NCBI RefSeq assembly: GCF_009659535.1
Contig: NZ_VJZZ01000004.1
Span: 434,001 to 498,000 of the forward strand
Reading direction: 5' to 3'
DNA length: 64,000 nucleotides
DNA from: Aggregicoccus sp. 17bor-14
Lineage (GTDB): Bacteria > Myxococcota > Myxococcia > Myxococcales > Myxococcaceae
The position numbers and the translations under genes were made by a program. Below are positions 18,870 to 56,696 of this stretch, piece after piece. The notes under the pieces are model-generated. The model had not been told where the DNA came from and did no database searches. It saw nothing but the letters and a program-made list of their open reading frames with translations. The first letter of the stretch is position 1, and every line of letters starts with the position of its first letter.

Positions 18870-19463
18870 ATGACCCCCGATCCTCTCAACCGACTCGTCG
18901 CCCAGCTGGCGAAGCTGCCGGGCATCGGCGAGAAGACCGCGCAGCGCCTGGCCTTCCACATCCTGCGCGCCCCCGGCGAGTACGCCGTGGACCTCTCGCA
19001 GGCCATCCGCGAGGTGAAGGAGAAGGTGCACCTGTGCACCCGCTGCTTCGCGCTCACGGACTCGGAGCTGTGCGGCTTCTGCCGCGACACGCGGCGCGAC
19101 GAGCGCCTCCTGTGCGTGGTGGAGAGCTTCGCGGACTTGATGGCGCTGGAGCGCACGCGCGAGTTCAAGGGCCGCTACCACGTGCTGCACGGCGTGCTCA
19201 GCCCGCTCGAGGGCGTGGGGCCAGACCAGCTGCGCATCAAGGAGCTGCTCGAGCGGCTCGGGGACGGGAAGGCCGAGGAGATCATCCTCGCCACCAACCC
19301 GGACGTGGAGGGCGAGGCGACGGCCCTCTACCTCACCCGCCTGCTCAAGCCGATGGGCCTGCGCCTCAGCCGCATCGCGCAGGGCCTGCCGATGGGCGGC
19401 GACATGGAGTTCGCCGACCAGGCCACGCTCGCGAAGGCGCTCTCCGCCCGCCGCGACATCTGA
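18870..19463 (+). CDS. recR: Recombination mediator protein RecR
   Basis: 197 residues, normal RecR length. RecR works with RecO (and RecF) to load RecA on SSB-coated DNA at gaps. The N-terminal helix-hairpin-helix is LAKLPGIGEKTAQRLAFHI. The four-cysteine zinc finger is CTRCFALTDSELCGFC. A Toprim domain begins LLCVVESFADLMALERT and includes the ATNPDVEGEATALYL acidic motif. The C-terminus carries the usual RIAQGLPMGGDMEFADQATL block. It starts 6 bases after ybaB and is convergent with the kinase gene, 15 bases away. Confidence 0.97.
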   Translation: MTPDPLNRLVAQLAKLPGIGEKTAQRLAFHILRAPGEYAVDLSQAIREVKEKVHLCTRCFALTDSELCGFCRDTRRDERLLCVVESFADLMALERTREFKGRYHVLHGVLSPLEGVGPDQLRIKELLERLGDGKAEEIILATNPDVEGEATALYLTRLLKPMGLRLSRIAQGLPMGGDMEFADQATLAKALSARRDI

Positions 19464-19478: not shown

Positions 19479-21773
19479 CTAGCGCGTGACGCGGTAGGCG
19501 AAGGGCTGCACCGCGGTGACCTTCTCGTCGCGGTGGGCCGGGAAGCGCAGGTGCCGCACCTGCTCCTCGAGGCAGCGCCCCACGGCCGTGTCGGCGAGCG
19601 GCCCGAGCGTGCGCGCCTCCACCCGGCCCGAGCCCAGCACGTCGAACTGCACCCGCACCTCGCCCGAGTCCTCGGAGAGGTCCGCCTTGTGCGCCTCGAA
19701 GCAGGCCATGATGCGCGCCTGCCCGCGCGACACCACGCGCCGGATGACGGTCTCGTCCAGCACCACCGGGCGCGCGCGCGCCGGACGCGCGGGGGCGAGC
19801 GCCGGCGCGGTGGCCTCCTGCGCGGTCGCTGGCGCGGGGGCCTCGGGAGCCGGCGCAGCGGCGGCGGGCCCGGAGGTCTCACTCGCGGCAACCTGGGCCG
19901 CAGCGGGGGGCGCGGCAACGGTCCCTGAGGCCTCGGGAGCGGCCGCCTGGGGCGCGGGCGCGGCTCGTGGGGTCGCGGACCTGGGGGCCTCGAGTCGGCT
20001 CACCGTGAGCGCCGCGCCCGCTGCGACGAGCACGCCGCCCACCAGCGCACCCAGCAGCAGCGCGCTCCAGCGGCGGGGCGCCGGTGAAGCGCTGGACGCT
20101 GCGGTCGAGCCGGGCTCGCGCGGGCGGTCCCCGGAGCGAGCGCCCTGCGCAGCCGCGAGCGCTGCCGGGTGCGCGCTCGACCGGGTCACCGGGAGTGCGC
20201 GCTCTGCCGCATCCCCTCCCCCGGCTTCCGCGGCGCCGGAGGCAGGGCCCGCGAGAGACGCCGTGGGTTCACCCACCGCGGGCAGCGGATACGCAGGCGT
20301 GGGCGCGGACGGGTCGCGAGGCGCGCGCGTCGACGGGTGGGTCCCAGCGCTCGACGCCGAGCCGGACGCGGGCGGCGCGCTGGCGTGCGCGGCGCCCGCT
20401 CCGCGCGCGGCCCAGGCCGCGGCGACCGGGTCCACGGCGGCGCGAGCGCGCGCCGCAGGAGCTGCAGCCGCGGCGGCTCCATCGCCAGTCGCATTGGCCC
20501 GCTGCGCAGTCCCCGCGGCCGGGGCAGGCGCGTGCCCACGCCGCGCGAGGAGCTCGGCCGGGGGCTCCGCCGCGGCGGGAAGCCACGGGACGGAGGCAGC
20601 GTCGTGCGGGGGCGAGGCGGCCGGAGCCGGCGTGCTCGCGGCGCCGGCGCGCGGAACCTCCGGCTCGGGCGCGCCGGCAGCGCTTCCCGCCGCGGGCTCG
20701 GTGGGCAGCACGGCCGTGGCCCCGTGACGGCCCGCGCCCCCGGCTCCCGGCAGCTCGAGCGCGGTGTCCTCGCTCGACGTGCCGTCCCCGCTCAGCAGCA
20801 TGGCCACGGTGGGGATGCGGGTGCGGCGCGCGACCTGCTCCTCGCCGAAGGCGGCGCGCAGGTAGGCCGCCACCTGCGGGGTGCTCGCGAGCAGGGTGCC
20901 GCCGCGGGCAAACGACTCCAGTGCCTCGGCGAGCGCCGCGGCCGTGGCGAAGCGCTGCTCCGGCTCCGCGGCCATGGCGCACAGCACGATCTCCTCGAGC
21001 GCCGCGGGCAGCTCCGGGCGCAGCTGGCGCGGGGGCACCACCTGGCCGCTGAGCACGGCGTTGAGCACCGCGAGCTCGTGGTCGCGCGCGAAGGGGCGCA
21101 CGCCGGTGAGCGCCTCGTACAGGCTCACGCCCAGCGCGAACACGTCCGCGCGCCGGTCCACCGCCCCGCCGCGCGCCTGCTCCGGCGCCATGTAGCTGTA
21201 CTTGCCCTTCACCACCCCGGTGTTGGTCTGGGTGAGGCGCGACTCGGCCTTGGCGATGCCGAAGTCGAGCACCTTCACCTGCCCCTGGTAGGTGAGGAAG
21301 AGGTTGGAGGGCGAGACGTCGCGGTGCACCACCCCCAGCTCGTGCGCGTGGTGCAGCCCGTGCGCCGCGTCCACCATCACCCGCAGCAGCACCGCGAGTG
21401 GCAGGCCGTCGTCCTCCTGGAGGGTGGCCTGCTGCAGCACCGAGCGCAGGTCCTCGCCCGCGAGGTACTCCATGCAGATGAAGTGGTAGCCGTCGACGAA
21501 GCCCGGCTCTTCGATGTGGATGATGTTCGGGTGCGCGAGGCGCGCGGCGAGCGACGCCTCGTCGTGGAACATGTCCACGAAGTCCTTGAGCGCCGAGAGG
21601 TGGCGCAGCAGGCGCTTGATCACCACCGCCTTCTCGAAGCCGCCCGTGCCCACGCGCTTGGCAAGGAAGACCTCGGCCATCCCGCCCTCGGCGAGCTTGC
21701 GCACCAGCACGAAGGGGCCGAAGACGCGGCCGGGGAGCCGCTGCGCGAGCGCTGTGGACGACGGGCGGGACAT
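19479..21773 (-). CDS. Membrane Ser/Thr protein kinase with AgmX/PglI-like C-terminal domain
   Basis: 764 residues behind a GAGGTGA site. An active Hanks-type kinase occupies about residues 18-285: glycine loop KLAEGGMAEVFLA, Lys in KAVVIKRLL, catalytic loop VHRDVSPSNLFL, DFGIAKAE and APEQARGG. A long Ala/Pro-rich linker follows, then one membrane helix (SALLLGALVGGVLVAAGAAL), a second low-complexity stretch and a folded C-terminal domain from VVLDETVIRRVVSRGQARIM to RFPAHRDEKV. That last part resembles the AgmX/PglI C-terminal (TonB-like) domain of myxobacterial proteins. The kinase would be cytoplasmic and the C-terminal domain periplasmic. It is last in a barrel-FecR-kinase operon, 8 bases after the FecR gene. 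Confidence 0.9.
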   Translation of the reverse strand: MSRPSSTALAQRLPGRVFGPFVLVRKLAEGGMAEVFLAKRVGTGGFEKAVVIKRLLRHLSALKDFVDMFHDEASLAARLAHPNIIHIEEPGFVDGYHFICMEYLAGEDLRSVLQQATLQEDDGLPLAVLLRVMVDAAHGLHHAHELGVVHRDVSPSNLFLTYQGQVKVLDFGIAKAESRLTQTNTGVVKGKYSYMAPEQARGGAVDRRADVFALGVSLYEALTGVRPFARDHELAVLNAVLSGQVVPPRQLRPELPAALEEIVLCAMAAEPEQRFATAAALAEALESFARGGTLLASTPQVAAYLRAAFGEEQVARRTRIPTVAMLLSGDGTSSEDTALELPGAGGAGRHGATAVLPTEPAAGSAAGAPEPEVPRAGAASTPAPAASPPHDAASVPWLPAAAEPPAELLARRGHAPAPAAGTAQRANATGDGAAAAAAPAARARAAVDPVAAAWAARGAGAAHASAPPASGSASSAGTHPSTRAPRDPSAPTPAYPLPAVGEPTASLAGPASGAAEAGGGDAAERALPVTRSSAHPAALAAAQGARSGDRPREPGSTAASSASPAPRRWSALLLGALVGGVLVAAGAALTVSRLEAPRSATPRAAPAPQAAAPEASGTVAAPPAAAQVAASETSGPAAAAPAPEAPAPATAQEATAPALAPARPARARPVVLDETVIRRVVSRGQARIMACFEAHKADLSEDSGEVRVQFDVLGSGRVEARTLGPLADTAVGRCLEEQVRHLRFPAHRDEKVTAVQPFAYRVTR

Positions 21774-21781
21774 CGGGGACT

Positions 21782-23785
21782 TCACCTCAGGCGGCGCACC
21801 GTCAGGGAGTCCGGTGCGCCGGGCCGGCTCATCATAAACAGGAGCAGCGGCGGCTGTCCCCTGGGGGCCACCCGGGCATCGAAGCGCCCCTTGGCGTCCA
21901 GCCGCAGCGGATCTCCGTTCACGCTCACGCGGCTGCCCACGGGCGCCACGCCCAGCACCCGCACGGGGCCAGTGCCCGCGCGCTGCCCGTTGCGGGGCGC
22001 CTGCACCATCAGGGCGGGCACCGAGTTGTCGTACGCGAGCTCCAGCTTGTTCATGCGCCCGCCGCGCAGCACCGCGCCCTGCGCCGAGAGCGGGGCGACC
22101 GACCAGAGGAAGCGCCCCTCGCCCAGCGCTCCGGCCTCGAGCGCCGCGCGCGTGAGCGGGGTGAGCGTGCCGGTGACCGGGCTGTCGAGCGCACCGTCCC
22201 GGTAGACGCTGAGGCGGTAGCGCGTGGCGCCGGGCGTGGGCTCCCAGGTGAAGGTCACCGCCGGGGGCTTGTCCCGGTCCTGGTAGAAGATGGTGGTGCG
22301 CTCGGGCCCCTCGGGCACCTCGTTGCGCAGCTGCGCGAGCGGGCGCTGCCGCGGCTCGGGCGCGAAGTGGGCGCTGCCCTGTGCGAGCGGCGCGCCGTCC
22401 GCACCCCGCACCCGCCAGTAGAGGCTGCCGCGCGCCGGCACGGGCACGTTCACGCTCGCGGCGTGCACCCGGCCCACCAGCACCGGGTGCGCGAAGGCCG
22501 CGTCGCTCGCGACCTCCACCTGTACGCCCTCGGGCGGCGGCGCCGCGGCCCAGGTGAGGGCCACCTCGGTGAGCCCCGCGTGGAAGACCTGCAGCGGCGC
22601 TCCGTCCGCGCCCGCGCCGTCCGCCGGCAGCGCCACCGGGGCCGCAGGCACGGCCTCCACCTCGAGGGCGTCGCCCGCGCGCTCGGGGACGCGCGCGCGC
22701 TCGCCCGCGCGCAGGCTGTGGCGCTGCTCGCCGCGCACCAGCGTCGCATCGCCGGCGCTCGCCGCCACGGTGAGCCCCTTCGCGCCGCGCTCCAGCTGCA
22801 GCCCGCCGCCGTCCGCGCCGCCGCCCTCCACCGTGAGCTCGGGCAGCACGAGGCGTCCGGTGCGCCCCGGTGCGAGCTGCAGCGCGAGCGCGCCGCGGCG
22901 CAGCTCGACCCGAGCCTCGTCCAGCGCATCGCCCGTCGAGGCCCCGCCGAAGGCGAGCTCGCCGCGGCCCTGCAGGAGCAGCGAGGAGCCGCTGCCCTCG
23001 AGCGCGAGGCGCGCCGGGCTGCTGCCCGTGCGCAGCGCGTCTCCCGCGGCGAGCGCCTCGCCGGCCGACGGCAGCGCGCGCCACGCCGCCTCGCCGCGCC
23101 GCCGCAGCTGCGCGCCCCCGCCGCCCTCGGCGCGCACCGTCACCCGCAGCGGGGCGAGCTCCACCACGCGCGGCTCGCGCGCTACGACCTCGAGGCGGCC
23201 CGCCGTCACCTCGAGCACCTCGCCGCGGCGCGCCCGGGTGCGCTCGCCCGTGGGGCGCTCGAACTCCACCTCGCCGAGCCGCACCTCCACGCGTACGCTG
23301 TCGCCCGCGCGCACCGCCACCTGCACCTCGCCGCCCGCACCGACGCGGGTAAGGCCCTGGGGGGTGAGCAGCGCGAGCTCGACCTGGCCGCCGGGCCGTG
23401 CGTCCGGCGCCGCGGCGGGCGTGCGCGAGAGCACCTCGCCCTGCAGCACCTCCAGCTCCACGTGGCCCTCGCGCGCCTGCACGCGCAGGCGCGCCGCGGG
23501 GCCCAGCTCCACGCTGCGCCCGTCCGGCAGGCGCACCGTGGCGCCCGCCGCGGCGCCCGTCTGCAGCAGGTCTCCGTCCCGCAGCGGGCCCGCGAGCGCT
23601 GGGGTACCCGGGGCGTCGCCGCGCAGCACCCGGACCTCGCCCGTGAGCCCCTCCAGGGTGAGCCCCTCGAGCCATGCGCTGGCGAGCCCCGCGTCCGCAG
23701 GGGTCCCCGCGTCCGGCGCGGAGGCCGGGCGCGCCCGGCAGCCGAGGGCGGCGAGCAGCGCGAGGGGGAGGAGGGAGCGGCGCAC
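21782..23785 (-). CDS. FecR-domain lipoprotein
   Basis: 667 residues from a GTG. A signal peptide ends in LLAALGC, so it is probably a lipoprotein. A FecR-type domain lies at about 40-150 (GEVRVLRGDAPG, then GPLRDGDLLQTG and VRLPDGRSVELGPAARLRV), the family known as periplasmic partners or sensors. A second similar segment follows (LPSAGEALAAGDALRTGSS), then three beta-sandwich repeats with Ig-like features (PVALPADGAGADGAPLQVF, FTWEPTPGATRYRLSVYRDG, VSVNGDPLRLDAKGRF). It sits 17 bases after the barrel gene and 8 before the kinase gene. Ligand and localisation beyond the envelope are inferred. Confidence 0.85.
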   Translation of the reverse strand: MRRSLLPLALLAALGCRARPASAPDAGTPADAGLASAWLEGLTLEGLTGEVRVLRGDAPGTPALAGPLRDGDLLQTGAAAGATVRLPDGRSVELGPAARLRVQAREGHVELEVLQGEVLSRTPAAAPDARPGGQVELALLTPQGLTRVGAGGEVQVAVRAGDSVRVEVRLGEVEFERPTGERTRARRGEVLEVTAGRLEVVAREPRVVELAPLRVTVRAEGGGGAQLRRRGEAAWRALPSAGEALAAGDALRTGSSPARLALEGSGSSLLLQGRGELAFGGASTGDALDEARVELRRGALALQLAPGRTGRLVLPELTVEGGGADGGGLQLERGAKGLTVAASAGDATLVRGEQRHSLRAGERARVPERAGDALEVEAVPAAPVALPADGAGADGAPLQVFHAGLTEVALTWAAAPPPEGVQVEVASDAAFAHPVLVGRVHAASVNVPVPARGSLYWRVRGADGAPLAQGSAHFAPEPRQRPLAQLRNEVPEGPERTTIFYQDRDKPPAVTFTWEPTPGATRYRLSVYRDGALDSPVTGTLTPLTRAALEAGALGEGRFLWSVAPLSAQGAVLRGGRMNKLELAYDNSVPALMVQAPRNGQRAGTGPVRVLGVAPVGSRVSVNGDPLRLDAKGRFDARVAPRGQPPLLLFMMSRPGAPDSLTVRRLR

Positions 23786-23802
23786 GGTGCGTCAGGGCCC
23801 TT

Positions 23803-25335
23803 TCAGCGGTGGGCGGGGAAGAGATCCACGTTGAAGATGGCCTGCTCGCCGTCCTGCACGGAGACGAGCTTCGTCTGCGCGAGGTGCTCGCCCGCCGAGA
23901 TGACGACGCGCCAGGTGCCGGGCGGCAGGTGCACCGAGAACACCCCGCCCGCGTTGGTAATTGTCCGCAGGCCCAGGCGCGGGATCTCCAGCACCGCGAG
24001 CAGCGGCCGGCCGAGGCCCGCGCTGCGCACCTGGCCGCTGAGCAGCGCGGGGGTGCGCTTGCGCAGCGGAGTGAGCGCCACCGGCAGCTGCGTCTCGCTG
24101 CCGGCCACCACCACCACCGCCTCCTCGCCGTCGCGGTACTGCGAGTGCGAGACGCGCACCGCGACGGGGCCGGGCGTGAGCCAGGGCGCGCTCACCGTGC
24201 CGTCGCCGTCCGACTCGAGGGCGTCCTCGCCCAGCTGCACGCGCGCTCCGGCAAGCGGCTCGCCGCTGGTGGCGTCGGTGACGCGCACGCGCAGGGTGCC
24301 GGTGGGCGGAGGCGAGTAGGGGGTGGGCTGGGCGAGCAGCTCGAGGCGCGTGAGCGCACCGGCCACCACCTGCACCCGCGCCTCCGCCGGCAGGTAGCCG
24401 GGGACCTCGAGCCGCGCCCACAGCTCGCCCGGCGCGAGCCCCTCCGCCGTGAGCAGGCCCCGTCCGTCCGAGCTGCGCAGGCCCTGCTCGTGCCCCACCG
24501 AGGTGAGCGCCACCGGCACGTAGCGCAGGGGCAGCCCCGTGCGCGCGTCGCTCACCGAGAGGCGCAGGGCGCCGGAGCGCGGCGCCACCTTCTCCGAGAG
24601 CGCCACCTGCAGCGCGAGCCCCAGGCGCGTGAGGCGCTGGGTGGAGTGCGCGCTGCCGTCCCCGGAGGCGACGGCGTCGCGCACGTGCTGCGCGTCCAGC
24701 ACCAGCGCGCCCGACCAGCGCCCGCGCTGCGCCACCGGCACGAGCAGCGCCGCGCCCGCGCTGAAGCCGCTCGCGCTCGCCGCCCCTCCACCCGCCTCGT
24801 GCGCCGCGAGCGTCACCGGCAGCGCGCCGCGCAGCTCCGCCTGGAGCCCGTGCGGCAGGGGCAGCTGCAGCCGTGCGCCCAGCAGCGCGGCGTGGCGCAC
24901 GGCGCGCGCGAGCTGGGGGGTGCGCGAGTCGCCGAAGAGGGGCAGCTGGGCGAGCTCGTAGCCCGCGCCGAGCTCCGCGCGCAGCGGCCCCAGCCCCAGC
25001 CGCAGCGCAGGGCCGAGCGAGGCGCGCACGAGGCTGCCGGAGGTGACCGCGTCGGCGCCCTCGACGAGCGAGAAGGCCTCGCGCTGCAGCGAGAGGCGCA
25101 GGGCGAGCCGGGGGTGGACGAAGGCCGCGGCGTCCAGCCCGAGGTCGTCGAAGGTGTGGCCCGCGTAGCTCAGGCCCGGCCCCGCGTCCTGCTGGCCGCC
25201 GCTGCGCAGCGCCGCGCCCGCGCGCACCCGCAGCTCGGCCTGGGGCACCTGCGCCTGCGCAGATCCCGCCCCCGCCGCACACGCGGCGAGCAGGGCGAAG
25301 AGCAGGCAGTGGAGCAAGCGCAACCGGGGAGCCAA
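23803..25335 (-). CDS. Outer-membrane barrel-like protein with carboxypeptidase-regulatory-like domains
   Basis: 510 residues from a TTG, the only start available after an in-frame stop. Signal peptide ALLAACAAGAGSAQA. Residues about 30-240 alternate polar and hydrophobic positions (LRVRAGAALRSGGQ, LRAELGAGYELAQLPLF, LQAELRGALPVTL), the look of an outer-membrane beta barrel. The second half holds three beta-sandwich units of the carboxypeptidase-regulatory type (SDARTGLPLRYVPVALTS, TDATSGEPLAGARVQLGE, AGLGRPLLAVLEIP). First gene of the operon with the FecR protein and the kinase; divergent from the secreted protein at 25438. Confidence 0.75.
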   Translation of the reverse strand: MAPRLRLLHCLLFALLAACAAGAGSAQAQVPQAELRVRAGAALRSGGQQDAGPGLSYAGHTFDDLGLDAAAFVHPRLALRLSLQREAFSLVEGADAVTSGSLVRASLGPALRLGLGPLRAELGAGYELAQLPLFGDSRTPQLARAVRHAALLGARLQLPLPHGLQAELRGALPVTLAAHEAGGGAASASGFSAGAALLVPVAQRGRWSGALVLDAQHVRDAVASGDGSAHSTQRLTRLGLALQVALSEKVAPRSGALRLSVSDARTGLPLRYVPVALTSVGHEQGLRSSDGRGLLTAEGLAPGELWARLEVPGYLPAEARVQVVAGALTRLELLAQPTPYSPPPTGTLRVRVTDATSGEPLAGARVQLGEDALESDGDGTVSAPWLTPGPVAVRVSHSQYRDGEEAVVVVAGSETQLPVALTPLRKRTPALLSGQVRSAGLGRPLLAVLEIPRLGLRTITNAGGVFSVHLPPGTWRVVISAGEHLAQTKLVSVQDGEQAIFNVDLFPAHR

Positions 25336-25437: not shown

Positions 25438-26370
25438 ATGCTGCTCTCGCTCCTGCTCGCCGCGCTCGCCGCCCTGCCCTCTTCCGCCGCCCCAAGGCCC
25501 CCGTGCGAGGCGCGGCTGGAGGCCGCGGGGAGCGCGGGTGTACGCGACGTGGGGGAGCTCGTGCTCGACGCCGGGCGCTGCCGCGCGGAGGACGCCGTGA
25601 TCGCCTTCGGGCTGAGCCAGCGCGCGCTGGCGCTCGCTCCGGACGCGCCCGGCGTGCGGCTCGCCCACGCGCGCAGCCTGCTCGCGCTGGGGGAGCGGGG
25701 GGCGGCGGCGCAGCTTCTGGACGAGGCCCTGCGCACCCCCGGTGACGGCGGTGAGGAGCGGCTCCTGCGCGCCGAGCTCGCGCGCGACGAGGGGGAGCCC
25801 GAGCAGGTGGTGCGGCTGCTCGAGACCCGCGCCACGCCCCGCTCGGCGCGCGCGCAGGCGCTGCTCGGGGAGGCCCGCGCGCAGCTCCCGGCGCGCTCCG
25901 AGGCTCGCCAGCAGCTCGCGGAGCTGGCCCGGGCGCAGCAGGCGCGCGAGCGCGAGGCGGCCCTGCGCGAGCCGCCGCCCGCGCGGCTGCGCCGGGGGCG
26001 CGAGGCCTGGGGCACGCGCGGCGTGGTGGAGAGCGGCGGCCAGCGCACCTTCCGGCTGCACAACGTGCGCGCCGGGGAGACCTACGTGCTCCTGGCGACG
26101 GGCCAGTGCACGCTGCCCTCCCCCTCCGCCCACAAGGGCCACCGCCGCAAGACGAGCCCGGCGCCCAGAGACCTCTTCGGGGTGGACTTCCGCGCCCGGG
26201 TGGGAGGGCTGGAGGCGTGGCCGCTGCGCGTGGGGCTGGACCCGGAGCGCAGCGCCTACACCTTTCGCGCCCCCGAGGACGACCCGCAGCTGTTCATCGA
26301 GGACGCGTCGGCCTCGGCGCACGTCGGCGTGCGCTGCAGTGTGCGCGACCTCGCGGTGCGCGCGCCCTGA
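25438..26370 (+). CDS. Secreted protein of unknown function with TPR-like helices
   Basis: 310 residues. Signal peptide MLLSLLLAALAALPSSAAP. Residues about 40-180 are helical with TPR-like spacing (AIAFG-type repeats: FGLSQRALALAPDAP, ARSLLALGERGAAAQLL, ELARDEGEPEQVVRLLE). The last 120 residues form a compact beta-rich domain (TFRLHNVRAGETYVLLATG, LFIEDASASAHVGVRC) with two widely spaced cysteines that may bridge in the periplasm. No enzyme motif is seen. About 100 bases separate it from the divergent barrel gene, so they could share a regulatory region. Confidence 0.7.
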   Translation: MLLSLLLAALAALPSSAAPRPPCEARLEAAGSAGVRDVGELVLDAGRCRAEDAVIAFGLSQRALALAPDAPGVRLAHARSLLALGERGAAAQLLDEALRTPGDGGEERLLRAELARDEGEPEQVVRLLETRATPRSARAQALLGEARAQLPARSEARQQLAELARAQQAREREAALREPPPARLRRGREAWGTRGVVESGGQRTFRLHNVRAGETYVLLATGQCTLPSPSAHKGHRRKTSPAPRDLFGVDFRARVGGLEAWPLRVGLDPERSAYTFRAPEDDPQLFIEDASASAHVGVRCSVRDLAVRAP

Positions 26371-27049: not shown

Positions 27050-27640
27050 ATGTCCTTCATCAACTACTCGTCCCGCGAGATCAACTGCAAGATCGTCTAT
27101 TACGGGCCCGGTCTGTGCGGGAAGACGACGAACCTGCAGTACATCTACAACAAGACCAACCCCGAGACGAAGGGCAAGCTCATCTCGCTCTCCACGGAGA
27201 CGGATCGCACGCTGTTCTTCGACTTCCTCCCGCTCTCGCTCGGTGAGATCCGCGGCTTCAAGACGCGCTTCCACCTGTACACGGTGCCCGGGCAGGTGTT
27301 CTACGACGCCAGCCGCAAGCTCATTCTCAAGGGAGTGGACGGGGTCGTCTTCGTCGCCGACAGCCAGGTCGAGCGCATGGAGGCGAACATGGAGAGCATC
27401 GAGAACCTGCGCATCAACCTGGCGGAGCAGGGCTACGACCTGAACAAGGTCCCCTACGTGCTGCAGTACAACAAGCGCGACCTGCCCAACGCGGTGACGA
27501 TGGACGAGATGCGCAAGGTGCTCAACCCGAAGAACATCCCGGAGTACCAGGCGGTGGCGCCCACGGGCGTGGGCGTGTTCGACACGCTCAAGGCGGTGGC
27601 GAAGCTGGTGCTGACGGAGCTCAAGAAGGGCGGCGGGTAG
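27050..27640 (+). CDS. mglA: MglA, Ras-like motility and polarity GTPase
   Basis: 196 residues. MglA-GTP marks the leading pole and drives type IV pili-based and gliding motility. The P-loop GPGLCGKTT spans 19-27, switch II contains TVPGQ at 78-82 with the MglA-specific threonine 78 in place of the usual Asp, and YNKRDLPNA (from 140) is the guanine-specificity motif. Length and sequence fit the Myxococcus protein almost throughout. Translation is probably coupled to mglB. A cyclic-nucleotide-binding gene begins 27 bases after the stop codon. Confidence 0.97.
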
Positions 27641-51821: not shown

Positions 51822-54722
51822 ATGCCGCTGCTCGCCCTGCTCACCCTGCCCTTCCTCTCGAGCCTGGTCGCGGCGCTGCTGCCGACGCGGGCGCGCAACC
51901 GCGCGGCGGCGCTCGCGGGGCTCACCGCGCTCGCGTGCGCGGTGGGGGCGGCGCTGTACCTGCCGGCCATCGCCCGGGGCGAGGTGCCCGAGCAGCGCCT
52001 GCGCTGGGTGCCCGGGCTGGGGCTGGACCTGGTGCTGCGGCTGGACGGCTTCGCCTGGCTGTTCTGCCTCCTGGTGCTGGGCATCGGCGCGCTGGTGGTG
52101 CTCTACGCGCGCTACTACCTCTCGCCCACGGACCCGGTGCCGCGCTTCTTCGCCTTCCTGCTCGCCTTCATGGGGGCGATGGTGGGCGTGGTGCTCTCGG
52201 GGAACCTCTTGCAGCTCGCCTTCTTCTGGGAGCTGACCTCGCTCTTCTCCTTCCTGCTCATCGGCTACTGGTACCACCGCCGCGACGCGCAGCGCGGCGC
52301 CCGCATGGCGCTCACGGTGACGGGCGCGGGCGGGCTCGCGCTGCTGGGCGGGGTGCTGCTGCTGGGCCACCTCGCGGGCAGCTACGAGCTCGCGGCGGTG
52401 CTCGCGAGCGGCGCGCGCGTGCAGGCCCACCCGCTCTACCCGGTGGCGCTGGTGCTGGTGCTGCTCGGGGCCTTCACCAAGAGCGCGCAGTTCCCCTTCC
52501 ACTTCTGGCTGCCCAACGCGATGGCGGCGCCCACGCCCGTCAGCGCGTACCTGCACTCGGCCACGATGGTGAAGCTGGGGGTGTTCCTGCTCGCGCGGCT
52601 GTGGCCGGTGCTCTCGGGCACCGAGCTGTGGTTCTGGCTGGTGGGGGGCGCGGGGCTCGTCACCCTGCTGCACGGCGCGTGGGTGGCGCTGTTCCAGCGC
52701 GACCTCAAGGGGCTGCTCGCCTACTCCACGCTCTCGCACCTGGGACTCATCACGCTGCTGCTGGGGCTCAACAGCCCGCTGGCCGCGGTGGCGGCCGTGT
52801 TCCACATCATGAACCACGCGGCCTTCAAGGCCTCGCTGTTCATGGCGGTGGGCATCATCGACCACGAGACGGGCACGCGCGACATCCAGCGGCTCAGCGG
52901 ACTTTGGCGGCCCATGCCGTACACCGCCACCCTGGCCATCGTGGCGAGCGCTGCCATGGCGGGCGTGCCGCTGCTCAACGGCTTCCTCTCCAAGGAGATG
53001 TTCTTCGCGGAGACCGTGTTCCTCGAGGGCACGCCGCTGGTGGAGTGGGGGCTGCCCTTGCTCGCGACGGTGGCGGGCATGGGCAGCGTGGCCTACTCGC
53101 TGCGCTTCACGGTAGACGTGTTCTTCGGCCCCTCCAGCGCGAAGGCGCTGCCGCGCGAGCCCGAGGAGCCGCCGCGCTGGATGCGCGTGCCGGTGGACCT
53201 GCTCGTGCTCCTGTGCGTCGTCGTGGGGGTGGCGCCGGCAGCCACGGTGGGCCGGGTGCTGGACGAGGCGGCGCGGCCCGTGGTGGGCGGGACGCTGCCC
53301 GCCTTCAGCCTCGCGCTGTGGCACGGCTTCAACCTCCCGCTGCTGATGAGCCTCGTGGCCTTGGCGGGCGGGGTGGGCTGCTACCTGCTGCTGCGGCGCC
53401 GGGGGCGCGCGCGCGGCCTGCCGGAGCAGGCGTGGACGCTGGTGCCGCTCGAGGGCCGGCGCGTCTTCACCTCGCTGCTCGCGCGGCTCACGCTCGCCTC
53501 GCGCGGGGTGCGCCGGCAGCTGCTCTCGGCGGGGCTGCAGCGCCAGCTGCTGCTGCTGGTGCTGGTGACGCTGGTGCTGGGCGCGGCGGCGCTGCGCCAC
53601 GGCGGGGCGGGGCCGGGGGACCGGCCGCGGGTGCCGCTCGCGCCCGCCTTCGCGGCGCTGTGGCTCGTGGGGGGCGTGGCGGCGCTGGGGGCGGCGTGGC
53701 AGGCGAAGTACCACCGGCTCGCGGCGCTGATGCTCTCGGGGGTGGCGGGGGTGGTGTGCTGCATCACCTTCATCTGGTTCTCCGCTCCCGACCTCGCGCT
53801 CACCCAGCTGGTGGTGGAGGTGGTGACGACGCTGCTCATCCTGCTGGGCCTGCGCTGGCTGCCGCCGCGCGAGCCGCAGCGCGGCGAGTTCACGCGGGCC
53901 ACGCTGCGCCAGGCGCGGTGGCGGCGCTCGCGCGACCTCGTCGTGGCGCTCGGGGCGGGAGGCGGGATGGCGGCGCTCGCGTACGCCGTCTCCACGCGCA
54001 ACCTGCCGCAGGGGCCGGCCTCCTTCTTCCTCGCGAACGCGCTGGAAGGGGGCGGCGGCCGCAACGTGGTGAACGTGATGCTGGTGGACTTCCGCGGCTT
54101 CGACACCTTCGGCGAGGGCGTGGTGCTGGGGCTGGTGGCGCTCACCGTCTACGCGCTCTTGCGCCGCTTCCGGCCCGCCGAGGAGATGCTGGAGCTGCCG
54201 CCGCAGCAGCGCGCGCTGCCGCCAGATCTACAGACGGACCTCATCAACCCGCGCCGCGCCCGGGACACGGCCGTGGGCTACCTGATGGTCCCGGCGGTGC
54301 TGGTGCGCCTGCTCTTCCCGGTCACCTTCGTGGTGGCGGTGTTCTTCTTCCTGCGCGGGCACAACGCGCCGGGCGGCGGCTTCGTGGCCGGGCTGGTGGT
54401 GTCGGTGGGCGTGCTGCTGCAGTACCTGGTGTCCGGCACGGAGTGGGTGGAGGAGCGCCTGAAGCTCGCGCCGCGCACGCTCATCGCGGTGGGGCTCTTG
54501 CTGGTGCTGGGCACCTCGGCGGGCGCCTTGTTCGCGGGCTACCCGCTGCTCACCTCGCACACCTGGCACCTGTCCTTGCCGCTGCTGGGCGAGGTGCACG
54601 TGGCGAGCGCGCTCTTCTTCGACCTGGGCATCTTCTCGCTGGTGCTGGGCTCCACGCTGTTCATCCTCGTGGCGCTCGCCCACCAGTCCATCCGCGCCCA
54701 CCGCACGCCGGGAGAGCCGTGA
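51822..54722 (+). CDS. mrpA: Mrp Na+/H+ antiporter subunit A fused to subunit B
   Basis: 966 residues. The first 750 form an NuoL-like antiporter subunit (FFWELTSLFSFLLIGYWYHR, LGAFTKSAQFPFHFWLPNAM, HIMNHAAFKASLFMAVGIID, LNGFLSKEMFFAE). From about 770 the sequence has the MnhB-type domain (GYLMVPAVLVRLLFPVTFVV, GHNAPGGGFVAGLVVSVGVL). This A+B fusion marks a group 2 mrp operon. Mrp complexes exchange Na+ for H+ and support pH and salt tolerance. It ends in TGATG with mrpC. Confidence 0.95.
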   Translation: MPLLALLTLPFLSSLVAALLPTRARNRAAALAGLTALACAVGAALYLPAIARGEVPEQRLRWVPGLGLDLVLRLDGFAWLFCLLVLGIGALVVLYARYYLSPTDPVPRFFAFLLAFMGAMVGVVLSGNLLQLAFFWELTSLFSFLLIGYWYHRRDAQRGARMALTVTGAGGLALLGGVLLLGHLAGSYELAAVLASGARVQAHPLYPVALVLVLLGAFTKSAQFPFHFWLPNAMAAPTPVSAYLHSATMVKLGVFLLARLWPVLSGTELWFWLVGGAGLVTLLHGAWVALFQRDLKGLLAYSTLSHLGLITLLLGLNSPLAAVAAVFHIMNHAAFKASLFMAVGIIDHETGTRDIQRLSGLWRPMPYTATLAIVASAAMAGVPLLNGFLSKEMFFAETVFLEGTPLVEWGLPLLATVAGMGSVAYSLRFTVDVFFGPSSAKALPREPEEPPRWMRVPVDLLVLLCVVVGVAPAATVGRVLDEAARPVVGGTLPAFSLALWHGFNLPLLMSLVALAGGVGCYLLLRRRGRARGLPEQAWTLVPLEGRRVFTSLLARLTLASRGVRRQLLSAGLQRQLLLLVLVTLVLGAAALRHGGAGPGDRPRVPLAPAFAALWLVGGVAALGAAWQAKYHRLAALMLSGVAGVVCCITFIWFSAPDLALTQLVVEVVTTLLILLGLRWLPPREPQRGEFTRATLRQARWRRSRDLVVALGAGGGMAALAYAVSTRNLPQGPASFFLANALEGGGGRNVVNVMLVDFRGFDTFGEGVVLGLVALTVYALLRRFRPAEEMLELPPQQRALPPDLQTDLINPRRARDTAVGYLMVPAVLVRLLFPVTFVVAVFFFLRGHNAPGGGFVAGLVVSVGVLLQYLVSGTEWVEERLKLAPRTLIAVGLLLVLGTSAGALFAGYPLLTSHTWHLSLPLLGEVHVASALFFDLGIFSLVLGSTLFILVALAHQSIRAHRTPGEP

Positions 54723-55053
54723 TGGAGGCGGTGCTCTCGCTCGCCATCGGCGTGCTGCTCGGGGCGGGGGTGTGGCTCATCCTGCGCCCGCGCACCTTCC
54801 AGGTGGTCATCGGGCTCTCGCTCATCGCCTACGCAGTGAACCTGTTCATCTTCAGCATGGGGGGGCTCGCGATCGACGAGGAGCCCATCCTGGTGGACGG
54901 CGTGCCGGCAGACCTCGCGCACTACGCGGACCCCATGCCGCAGGCCCTGGTGCTCACGGCGATCGTGATCAGCTTCGCGATGACGGCGCTGCTCCTGGTG
55001 GTGCTGCTCGCCTCGCGGGGACTCTCGGGGACGGACCACGTGGACGGTGTGGA

Positions 55054-55057
<4 letters not shown>
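54722..55057 (+). CDS. mrpC: Mrp antiporter subunit C
   Basis: 111 residues, NuoK-like with three hydrophobic segments (ALSLAIGVLLGAGVWLIL; QVVIGLSLIAYAVNLFIFS; LTAIVISFAMTALLLVVLL). The loop between segments two and three (EEPILVDGVPADLAHYADP) is long and acidic. Its start shares one base with the mrpA stop and its end overlaps mrpD by four bases. Confidence 0.94.

Positions 55058-56696
<1,639 letters not shown>

Follow-up and report, generated by a model that had tools for sequence, protein, structure and literature searches.

How could an event at the outer membrane of a myxobacterium reach a protein kinase in the cytoplasm? Three adjoining genes raise this question in a stretch of 64,000 nucleotides, here called the window, from Aggregicoccus sp. 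17bor-14 (genome of 6.92 Mb in 38 contigs; contig NZ_VJZZ01000004.1, positions 434,001 to 498,000). A preliminary description had read the genes as encoding, in close sequence, an outer-membrane barrel, a FecR lipoprotein, and a membrane kinase with an AgmX/PglI-like periplasmic tail. This proved correct, down to the exact span of 19479-25335, and barrel, FecR fold, and kinase tail are each real or confidently predicted (Pfam, NF033768, AlphaFold2, and structure comparison). By sequence comparison, the operon is near certainly the ortholog of masABK of Myxococcus xanthus, an already published system. The three Mas proteins may form a trans-envelope chain in which an outer-membrane receptor, a FecR-type adaptor, and an inner-membrane kinase act as a relay, a reading with a probability of about 0.6. 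Missing from the preliminary description were the identity with masABK and the flanking genes, with mglB and mglA immediately upstream in divergent orientation and recR immediately downstream.

Identity and Layout of the Locus

23803-25335, minus strand: MasA ortholog, the barrel protein, 510 amino acids; TTG start, with the start codon unsure
21782-23785, minus strand: MasB ortholog, the FecR lipoprotein, 667 amino acids; GTG start; lipobox LGC
19479-21773, minus strand: MasK ortholog, a Hanks kinase with an AgmX/PglI tail, 764 amino acids
26559-27038, plus strand: mglB, encoding the GTPase-activating protein of MglA, divergent neighbor; Roadblock/LC7 (Pfam); the match to NF052242 (MglB) is below its cutoff
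27050-27640, plus strand: mglA, encoding a Ras-like GTPase, divergent neighbor; Arf/Ras (Pfam)
25438-26370, plus strand: gene for a TPR-like secreted protein between masA and mglB; the TPR_19 match is below the cutoff
18870-19463, plus strand: recR, convergent with masK (Pfam)

The trio is codirected on the minus strand between recR and mglBA, and gaps of only 17 bases (masA-masB) and 8 bases (masB-masK) suggest one transcript. Fremgen et al. described masABK of M. xanthus (MXAN_1927-1929) as cotranscribed genes for MasA (505 amino acids), the lipoprotein MasB (656 amino acids), and the kinase MasK, with mglBA divergent and recR next on the other strand (2013, PMC3546991). The window order recR-masK-masB-masA-mglBA is the same, with a lipoprotein in second and a kinase in third place, similar protein sizes (510 and 667 residues for MasA and MasB), divergent mglBA, and convergent recR. 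MasA, MasB, and MasK share 47%, 54%, and 52% identity with an M. xanthus-like copy (genome G011, locus L048; handles with G, L, and g stand for genomes, loci, and genera), whose MasB contains the published M. xanthus residues VAGCDDD. This link, the common layout, and these identities argue for orthology with the known operon, and in the MasB and MasK trees, the window falls within the mgl-linked group. The window differs from the M. xanthus operon in an extra TPR-like gene, an arginine after the lipobox cysteine, and a longer MasK linker.

The published evidence in M. xanthus is limited, in the accessible text, to two-hybrid contacts between pairs of proteins and to phenotypes in motility (PMC3546991). 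Contacts are reported among MasA, MasB, and MasK, between MasK and MglA, and with PilA. MasK localizes to the poles, and the operon has a role in S-motility (social motility) and pilA expression, with phenotypes in pili and exopolysaccharide (EPS). The accessible part of that paper describes no barrel and no conserved domain for MasB and gives MasA an inner-membrane topology. A literature search found no work on masABK or MXAN_1927-1929 beyond PMC3546991.

Domain Structure of the Mas Proteins

The AlphaFold2 model of MasA, built on 41 sequences, shows a mean predicted local distance difference test score (pLDDT) of 93.2. It contains a signal helix at residues 3-21 (signal peptide, about residues 1-28), a 10-stranded β-barrel of the outer-membrane type at about residues 31-247, and three β-sandwiches resembling carboxypeptidase-regulatory domains at about residues 255-335, 346-421, and 430-505. 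Pfam likewise assigns three stretches to CarboxypepD_reg (PF13620), and residues 430-509 match the transthyretin-like domain of carboxypeptidase D with a Z score of 14.1. In structure comparison, the barrel matches OpcA with a Z score of 21.9 over 197 residues at 2.5 Å and OmpT-type barrels with a Z score of about 17.8; at 13% identity to OpcA, the likeness to both is one of fold only. On the basis of the model, MasA is most likely an outer-membrane barrel protein. A TonB-dependent receptor, which has 22 strands and a plug, is ruled out, as MasA has 10 strands, no plug, and no such Pfam domain.

The published topology places MasA in the inner membrane with two transmembrane helices, a placement derived from helix-prediction programs and from a single PhoA fusion, near residues 78-176, that was active (PMC3546991). 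The published helices at residues 58-77 and 177-195 correspond to window residues 65-83 and 183-201, which are barrel strands in the model. The active fusion is compatible with a barrel because it indicates export, which outer-membrane proteins also need; a second, negative fusion is called inactive or possibly unstable by those authors. The two-hybrid fragments, a "periplasmic" one of residues 77-175 and a "cytoplasmic" one of residues 196-505 (PMC3546991), would both cut through the barrel, so the MasA contacts need a retest.

MasB contains a FecR domain (PF04773; E value, 8.7e-08; 33 bits against a curated cutoff of 24 bits). In its predicted structure (pLDDT, 88.1), residues 69-207 match the cell-surface-signaling domain of PupR (6ovk) with a Z score of 15.9 and a second anti-sigma structure with a Z score of 14.1, so this region is confidently predicted to have the PupR/FecR signaling-domain fold. 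The later parts are β-rich and Fn3-like at a Z score of about 8, which may reflect only a common arrangement. Besides FecR, the Pfam scan of MasB gave one subthreshold match and no cytoplasmic anti-sigma part. The lipobox was read from the sequence, and the lipoprotein signal lies shortly ahead of the periplasmic part. In M. xanthus, placement of MasB in the inner membrane was argued from an aspartate after the lipidated cysteine (PMC3546991). A pattern search of 38 ortholog sequences found this aspartate in 7 of 29 usable lipoboxes, and the window has an arginine after the lipid-modified cysteine.

MasK combines a Pkinase domain (Pfam; E value, 1.4e-35; residues 23-281), an Ala/Pro-rich linker, a single hydrophobic transmembrane helix at about residues 571-589 judged by hydropathy, and a tail matching NF033768 (myxo_SS_tail) at residues 672-759 with 55.6 bits against a cutoff of 40. 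The catalytic residues K53, E72, HRD 150-152, N157, and DFG 170-172 and the tail cysteines C691 and C734 are invariant in all 34 rows of alignment A3. This alignment excludes L060, L062, L072, L073, L076, L077, and L085; alignment A2 excludes L062 and L085, which have no MasB, and L072 and L076, which are cut. Among 64 open reading frames (ORFs) with kinase and tail, 56 pass a strict check of the catalytic motifs; seven of the eight failures miss one motif of the strict pattern, and L077, with kinase and tail in different frames, misses two. The NF033768 match ranges across 10 relatives scanned from none (L215) to 62.6 bits (L048).

The preliminary description had called the fusion of a Hanks kinase with such a tail nonstandard. 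Within a genome, this holds: of 9 tails over the cutoff and 31 kinase matches in the window genome, MasK alone has both, and 1 of 12 such tails in G011, where several ORFs were seen only in part, lies in a kinase ORF. Within the family, it does not, as the fusion is the rule for this gene; a one-off oddity is ruled out by a MasK architecture that is standard across the family.

The closest parallels to MasK are GltG (PglI) and GltJ (AgmX), which likewise have a cytoplasmic part, one transmembrane helix, and a periplasmic NF033768 tail. Those proteins differ from MasK in being parts of the gliding motor, and the head of GltG is an FHA domain instead of a kinase. The head of GltJ carries a zinc ribbon and a GYF domain. 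The tails of two MasK-like kinases (L204:6165-8093 and L206:5709-7547) match the GltJ model with 49.4 and 60.6 bits, and the L204 kinase also has an N-terminal zinc ribbon like that of GltJ; together, these features make a link between Mas and Glt proteins possible. GltJ is listed among the effectors of MglA in the accessible part of a 2025 review (PMC12288465). The kinases of L196, L199, L201, and L208 contain two tandem AgmX/PglI-type tail matches.

Conservation and Linkage to mglBA

MasA matches at an E value of ≤0.001 occur in 104 of 145 genomes of the class, many through common C-terminal domains only; 80 of the 145, chosen by hand from the match listing, have a near-full match. In 69 of these 80 genomes, a single contig carries masA and mglA no more than 8 kb apart. 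The other 11 comprise three assembly breaks as far as discernible (G041, G082, and G109), one linked but cut locus (G133, L077), and seven genomes (six of genus g13 and one of g16) with mas and mglA on different contigs. In the five fetched mgl loci of these seven (L144, L145, L146, L154, and L155), mglB adjoins recR with no mas gene between them. An mglB gene close to recR without mas is found at L143-L147, L150, L152, L154, and L155, and at L148:10171-12132 and L149:9388-11400, a gene that looks peptidase-like by eye fills the gap. As all 145 genomes have mglA matches, mas is not required for having MglA, and a role of Mas as an obligate companion of MglA is ruled out.

Across the family, MasA, MasB, and MasK keep their order, a conservation well beyond chance. 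All 18 long named loci carry the three genes, which are found, for example, in Myxococcus, Pyxidicoccus, Archangium, and Hyalangium. A MasA-like protein with a barrel match occurs at L085:4335-5807 with no MasB or kinase nearby.

The TPR-like gene of the window is present in 5 of the 40 mas loci fetched (L053, L054, L055, L081, and L083); it is confined to some genera and absent from the M. xanthus-like copy. Elsewhere in the window, positions 52001-56000 show a strong AT skew (-0.333); the ORFs there resemble, by eye, membrane antiporter subunits of the Mrp/NADH dehydrogenase type and are probably ordinary.

Recurrence in the Phylum and Exchangeable Ends

A MasB profile matches 102 of 195 genomes of the phylum Myxococcota at an E value of ≤1e-15. 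Some of the matches are second copies within the family, and others, with E < 1e-39, come from eight further families (14 genomes). The search for the same set in other genomes thus indicates its conservation. No more than 2.6 kb separates MasB from a kinase-with-tail ORF in 34 of 38 loci of a first set, where the four exceptions break off at a contig end; in a second set, the figure is 24 of 33 loci. The remaining nine of the second set comprise three loci near a contig end that have a kinase with no visible tail, two whose kinase and tail are farther away (4.4 and 5.8 kb), and four without a kinase-with-tail ORF, one of them near a contig end. Among the 14 genomes of other families, 12 have kinase and tail within 2.6 kb. 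The trio of these families often lies away from mglBA, and in some modules (L197, L202-L204, L206, and L207), the kinase is on the opposite strand.

Both ends of the module vary. In L186-L188 and L209, the MasA signal peptide directly precedes the sandwiches, and the MasA-like proteins of other families have a head that is longer and different; the alignment of such distant heads with the MasA profile starts at window residue 64 (hhalign E value, 9.3e-36). At the other end, a swap clade (L086, L189-L192, L214, L215, L217, L218, and relatives) has a MasA that matches the MasA profile from end to end (hhalign E value, 1.2e-72; nine rows) and a MasB that groups with other modules of the family, and its kinase domain groups with another kinase of the window genome, L223 (100% SH-like approximate likelihood ratio test). 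The kinase of L087 separately groups with another kinase, L227 (99%). Monophyly of all Mas kinases is rejected by an approximately unbiased (AU) test (P = 4.6e-53), a value that is post hoc, as the swap group was defined only once the first tree had been viewed. This tree was built without 10 rows (near copies, L077, and L194) and with the 26 of 29 background kinase loci that could be used. The MasB and MasK trees, which exclude MasB rows shorter than about 380 residues and kinases more than 6 kb away, show the same main groups except for the swapped-kinase rows. From these comparisons, the periplasmic receptor part seems to be constant and the kinase variable. Since MasA and MasB are kept and the kinase is different, the swap clade fits a receptor part that plugs into a kinase through the tail.

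Proposed Mechanism and Alternatives

According to the proposed chain, MasA would sit in the outer membrane through its 10-stranded barrel, with the three β-sandwiches hanging into the periplasm. The lipoprotein MasB, with its FecR/PupR-type and Fn3-like domains, would bridge the periplasm. MasK would cross the inner membrane once, with a cytoplasmic Hanks kinase that carries the output and a periplasmic AgmX/PglI (TonB-C-like) tail that docks on MasA, MasB, or both. A surface event at MasA, such as contact, a pilus, or polysaccharide, would alter kinase activity; in gliding myxobacteria, the output would affect how MglA is polarized and how type IV pilin is expressed. The models make this topology likely, and the phenotypes described for M. 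xanthus suggest, as far as the accessible text goes, that type IV pili and MglA are on the output side (PMC3546991); for the direction of the signal, its ligand, and its substrate, the assignments are what we infer. The preliminary suggestion that the layout could let an outer-membrane signal reach the kinase is partly supported: the domain layout fits such a path, along which a signal may pass inward.

Several observations weigh against this chain. The published topology of MasA is an inner-membrane one, and the two-hybrid fragments cut according to it are hard to read under a barrel topology. In all four g10 genomes (L140, L141, L142, and L211), masK with transmembrane helix and tail stands alone beside mglB, with no masA or masB beside it and no genome-wide MasB match at an E value of ≤1e-15. 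MasA and MasB are thus dispensable in g10. At the MasB loci L193, L195, and L200, no kinase was found over more than 6 kb downstream. Codescent of the tail in the swap clade is unsupported because the tail profile lacks specificity: built from the tails of mgl-linked MasK proteins alone, it fails to separate distant Mas tails (18-69 bits; 86.7 bits for L079) from GltG/GltJ-type tails (20-56 bits). As regards operon conservation against genes standing alone, the trio is mostly kept, with the g10 genomes and these three MasB loci on the other side.

A structural, inside-out, Glt-like trans-envelope machine, in which the tail transmits force or regulates outer-membrane parts (pilus or polysaccharide export) and the kinase controls from inside, is an unlikely alternative. 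The MasK tail belongs to the AgmX (GltJ)/PglI (GltG) family, distant MasK-like tails also match the GltJ model, and MglA is encoded next door; the GltG tail is annotated as TonB-like (PMC3169522), and the pilus and EPS phenotypes (PMC3546991) would suit such a machine. The signaling FecR/PupR fold of the MasB domain and the invariant catalytic residues of the kinase argue against it, and the Pfam scan of the neighbors gave no ExbB/D- or AglRQS-like motor gene.

It is improbable that MasK acts on MglA by itself as the functional unit and that MasA and MasB are a separate envelope pair merely traveling along. The solitary masK of g10 fits this idea, as does the original suppressor mutation, which maps to masK (PMC3546991), but the trio is kept in most loci across many families, also when relocated from mglBA, and the MasB and MasK trees share their main groups apart from the swapped-kinase rows.

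The published model of an inner-membrane MasA with two transmembrane helices and a cytoplasmic C terminus, in a MasABK complex that senses or presents PilA, has the active PhoA fusion and the PilA contacts in its favor (PMC3546991) and is nevertheless very improbable, given the confident barrel with strands in place of the predicted helices, the export also expected of an outer-membrane protein, the possibly unstable negative fusion, and the scarcity of the aspartate after the MasB lipobox cysteine (7 of 29 lipoboxes; arginine in the window).

Comparison with FecR/PupR Signaling

FecR/PupR systems consist of a TonB-dependent transducer, an anti-sigma regulator, and an extracytoplasmic function sigma factor. 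The trans-envelope chain proposed for Mas resembles them in combining an outer-membrane barrel with a FecR-type domain (MasB residues 69-207). It differs in its barrel, which has 10 strands and lacks a plug of the kind found in TonB-dependent receptors, in a lipoprotein without the cytoplasmic anti-sigma part, and in a kinase as the output. By analogy, Mas would work like FecAR-type signaling with a kinase output, yet it is not a member of the FecAR family because it has no plugged 22-strand receptor and no anti-sigma part.

Tentatively, and with the odds slightly against it, masABK may be the prototype of an undescribed class of receptor kinases that is modular, spans the envelope, and occurs throughout the phylum. 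On this reading, the barrel head is open to exchange or loss, and replacement of the kinase domain has happened on at least two occasions. These exchanges are the reason for regarding the receptor part as a plug-in input device. Signaling would start at the cell surface, as in a kinase counterpart of FecAR, and in gliders, the module would have been recruited beside the MglA switch.

Significance

The operon itself is known; new with respect to the literature found are the reassignment of MasA as a barrel and of MasB as a FecR-type protein, the occurrence of the trio throughout the phylum, and the replacement of its kinase. Should MasA prove to be an outer-membrane receptor, both the published topology and the two-hybrid fragments would have to be revised, and a path from surface to kinase would become directly testable in a tractable, harmless soil bacterium. 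Because the trio recurs in the phylum, Hanks kinases would then have a general way to sense the outer membrane.

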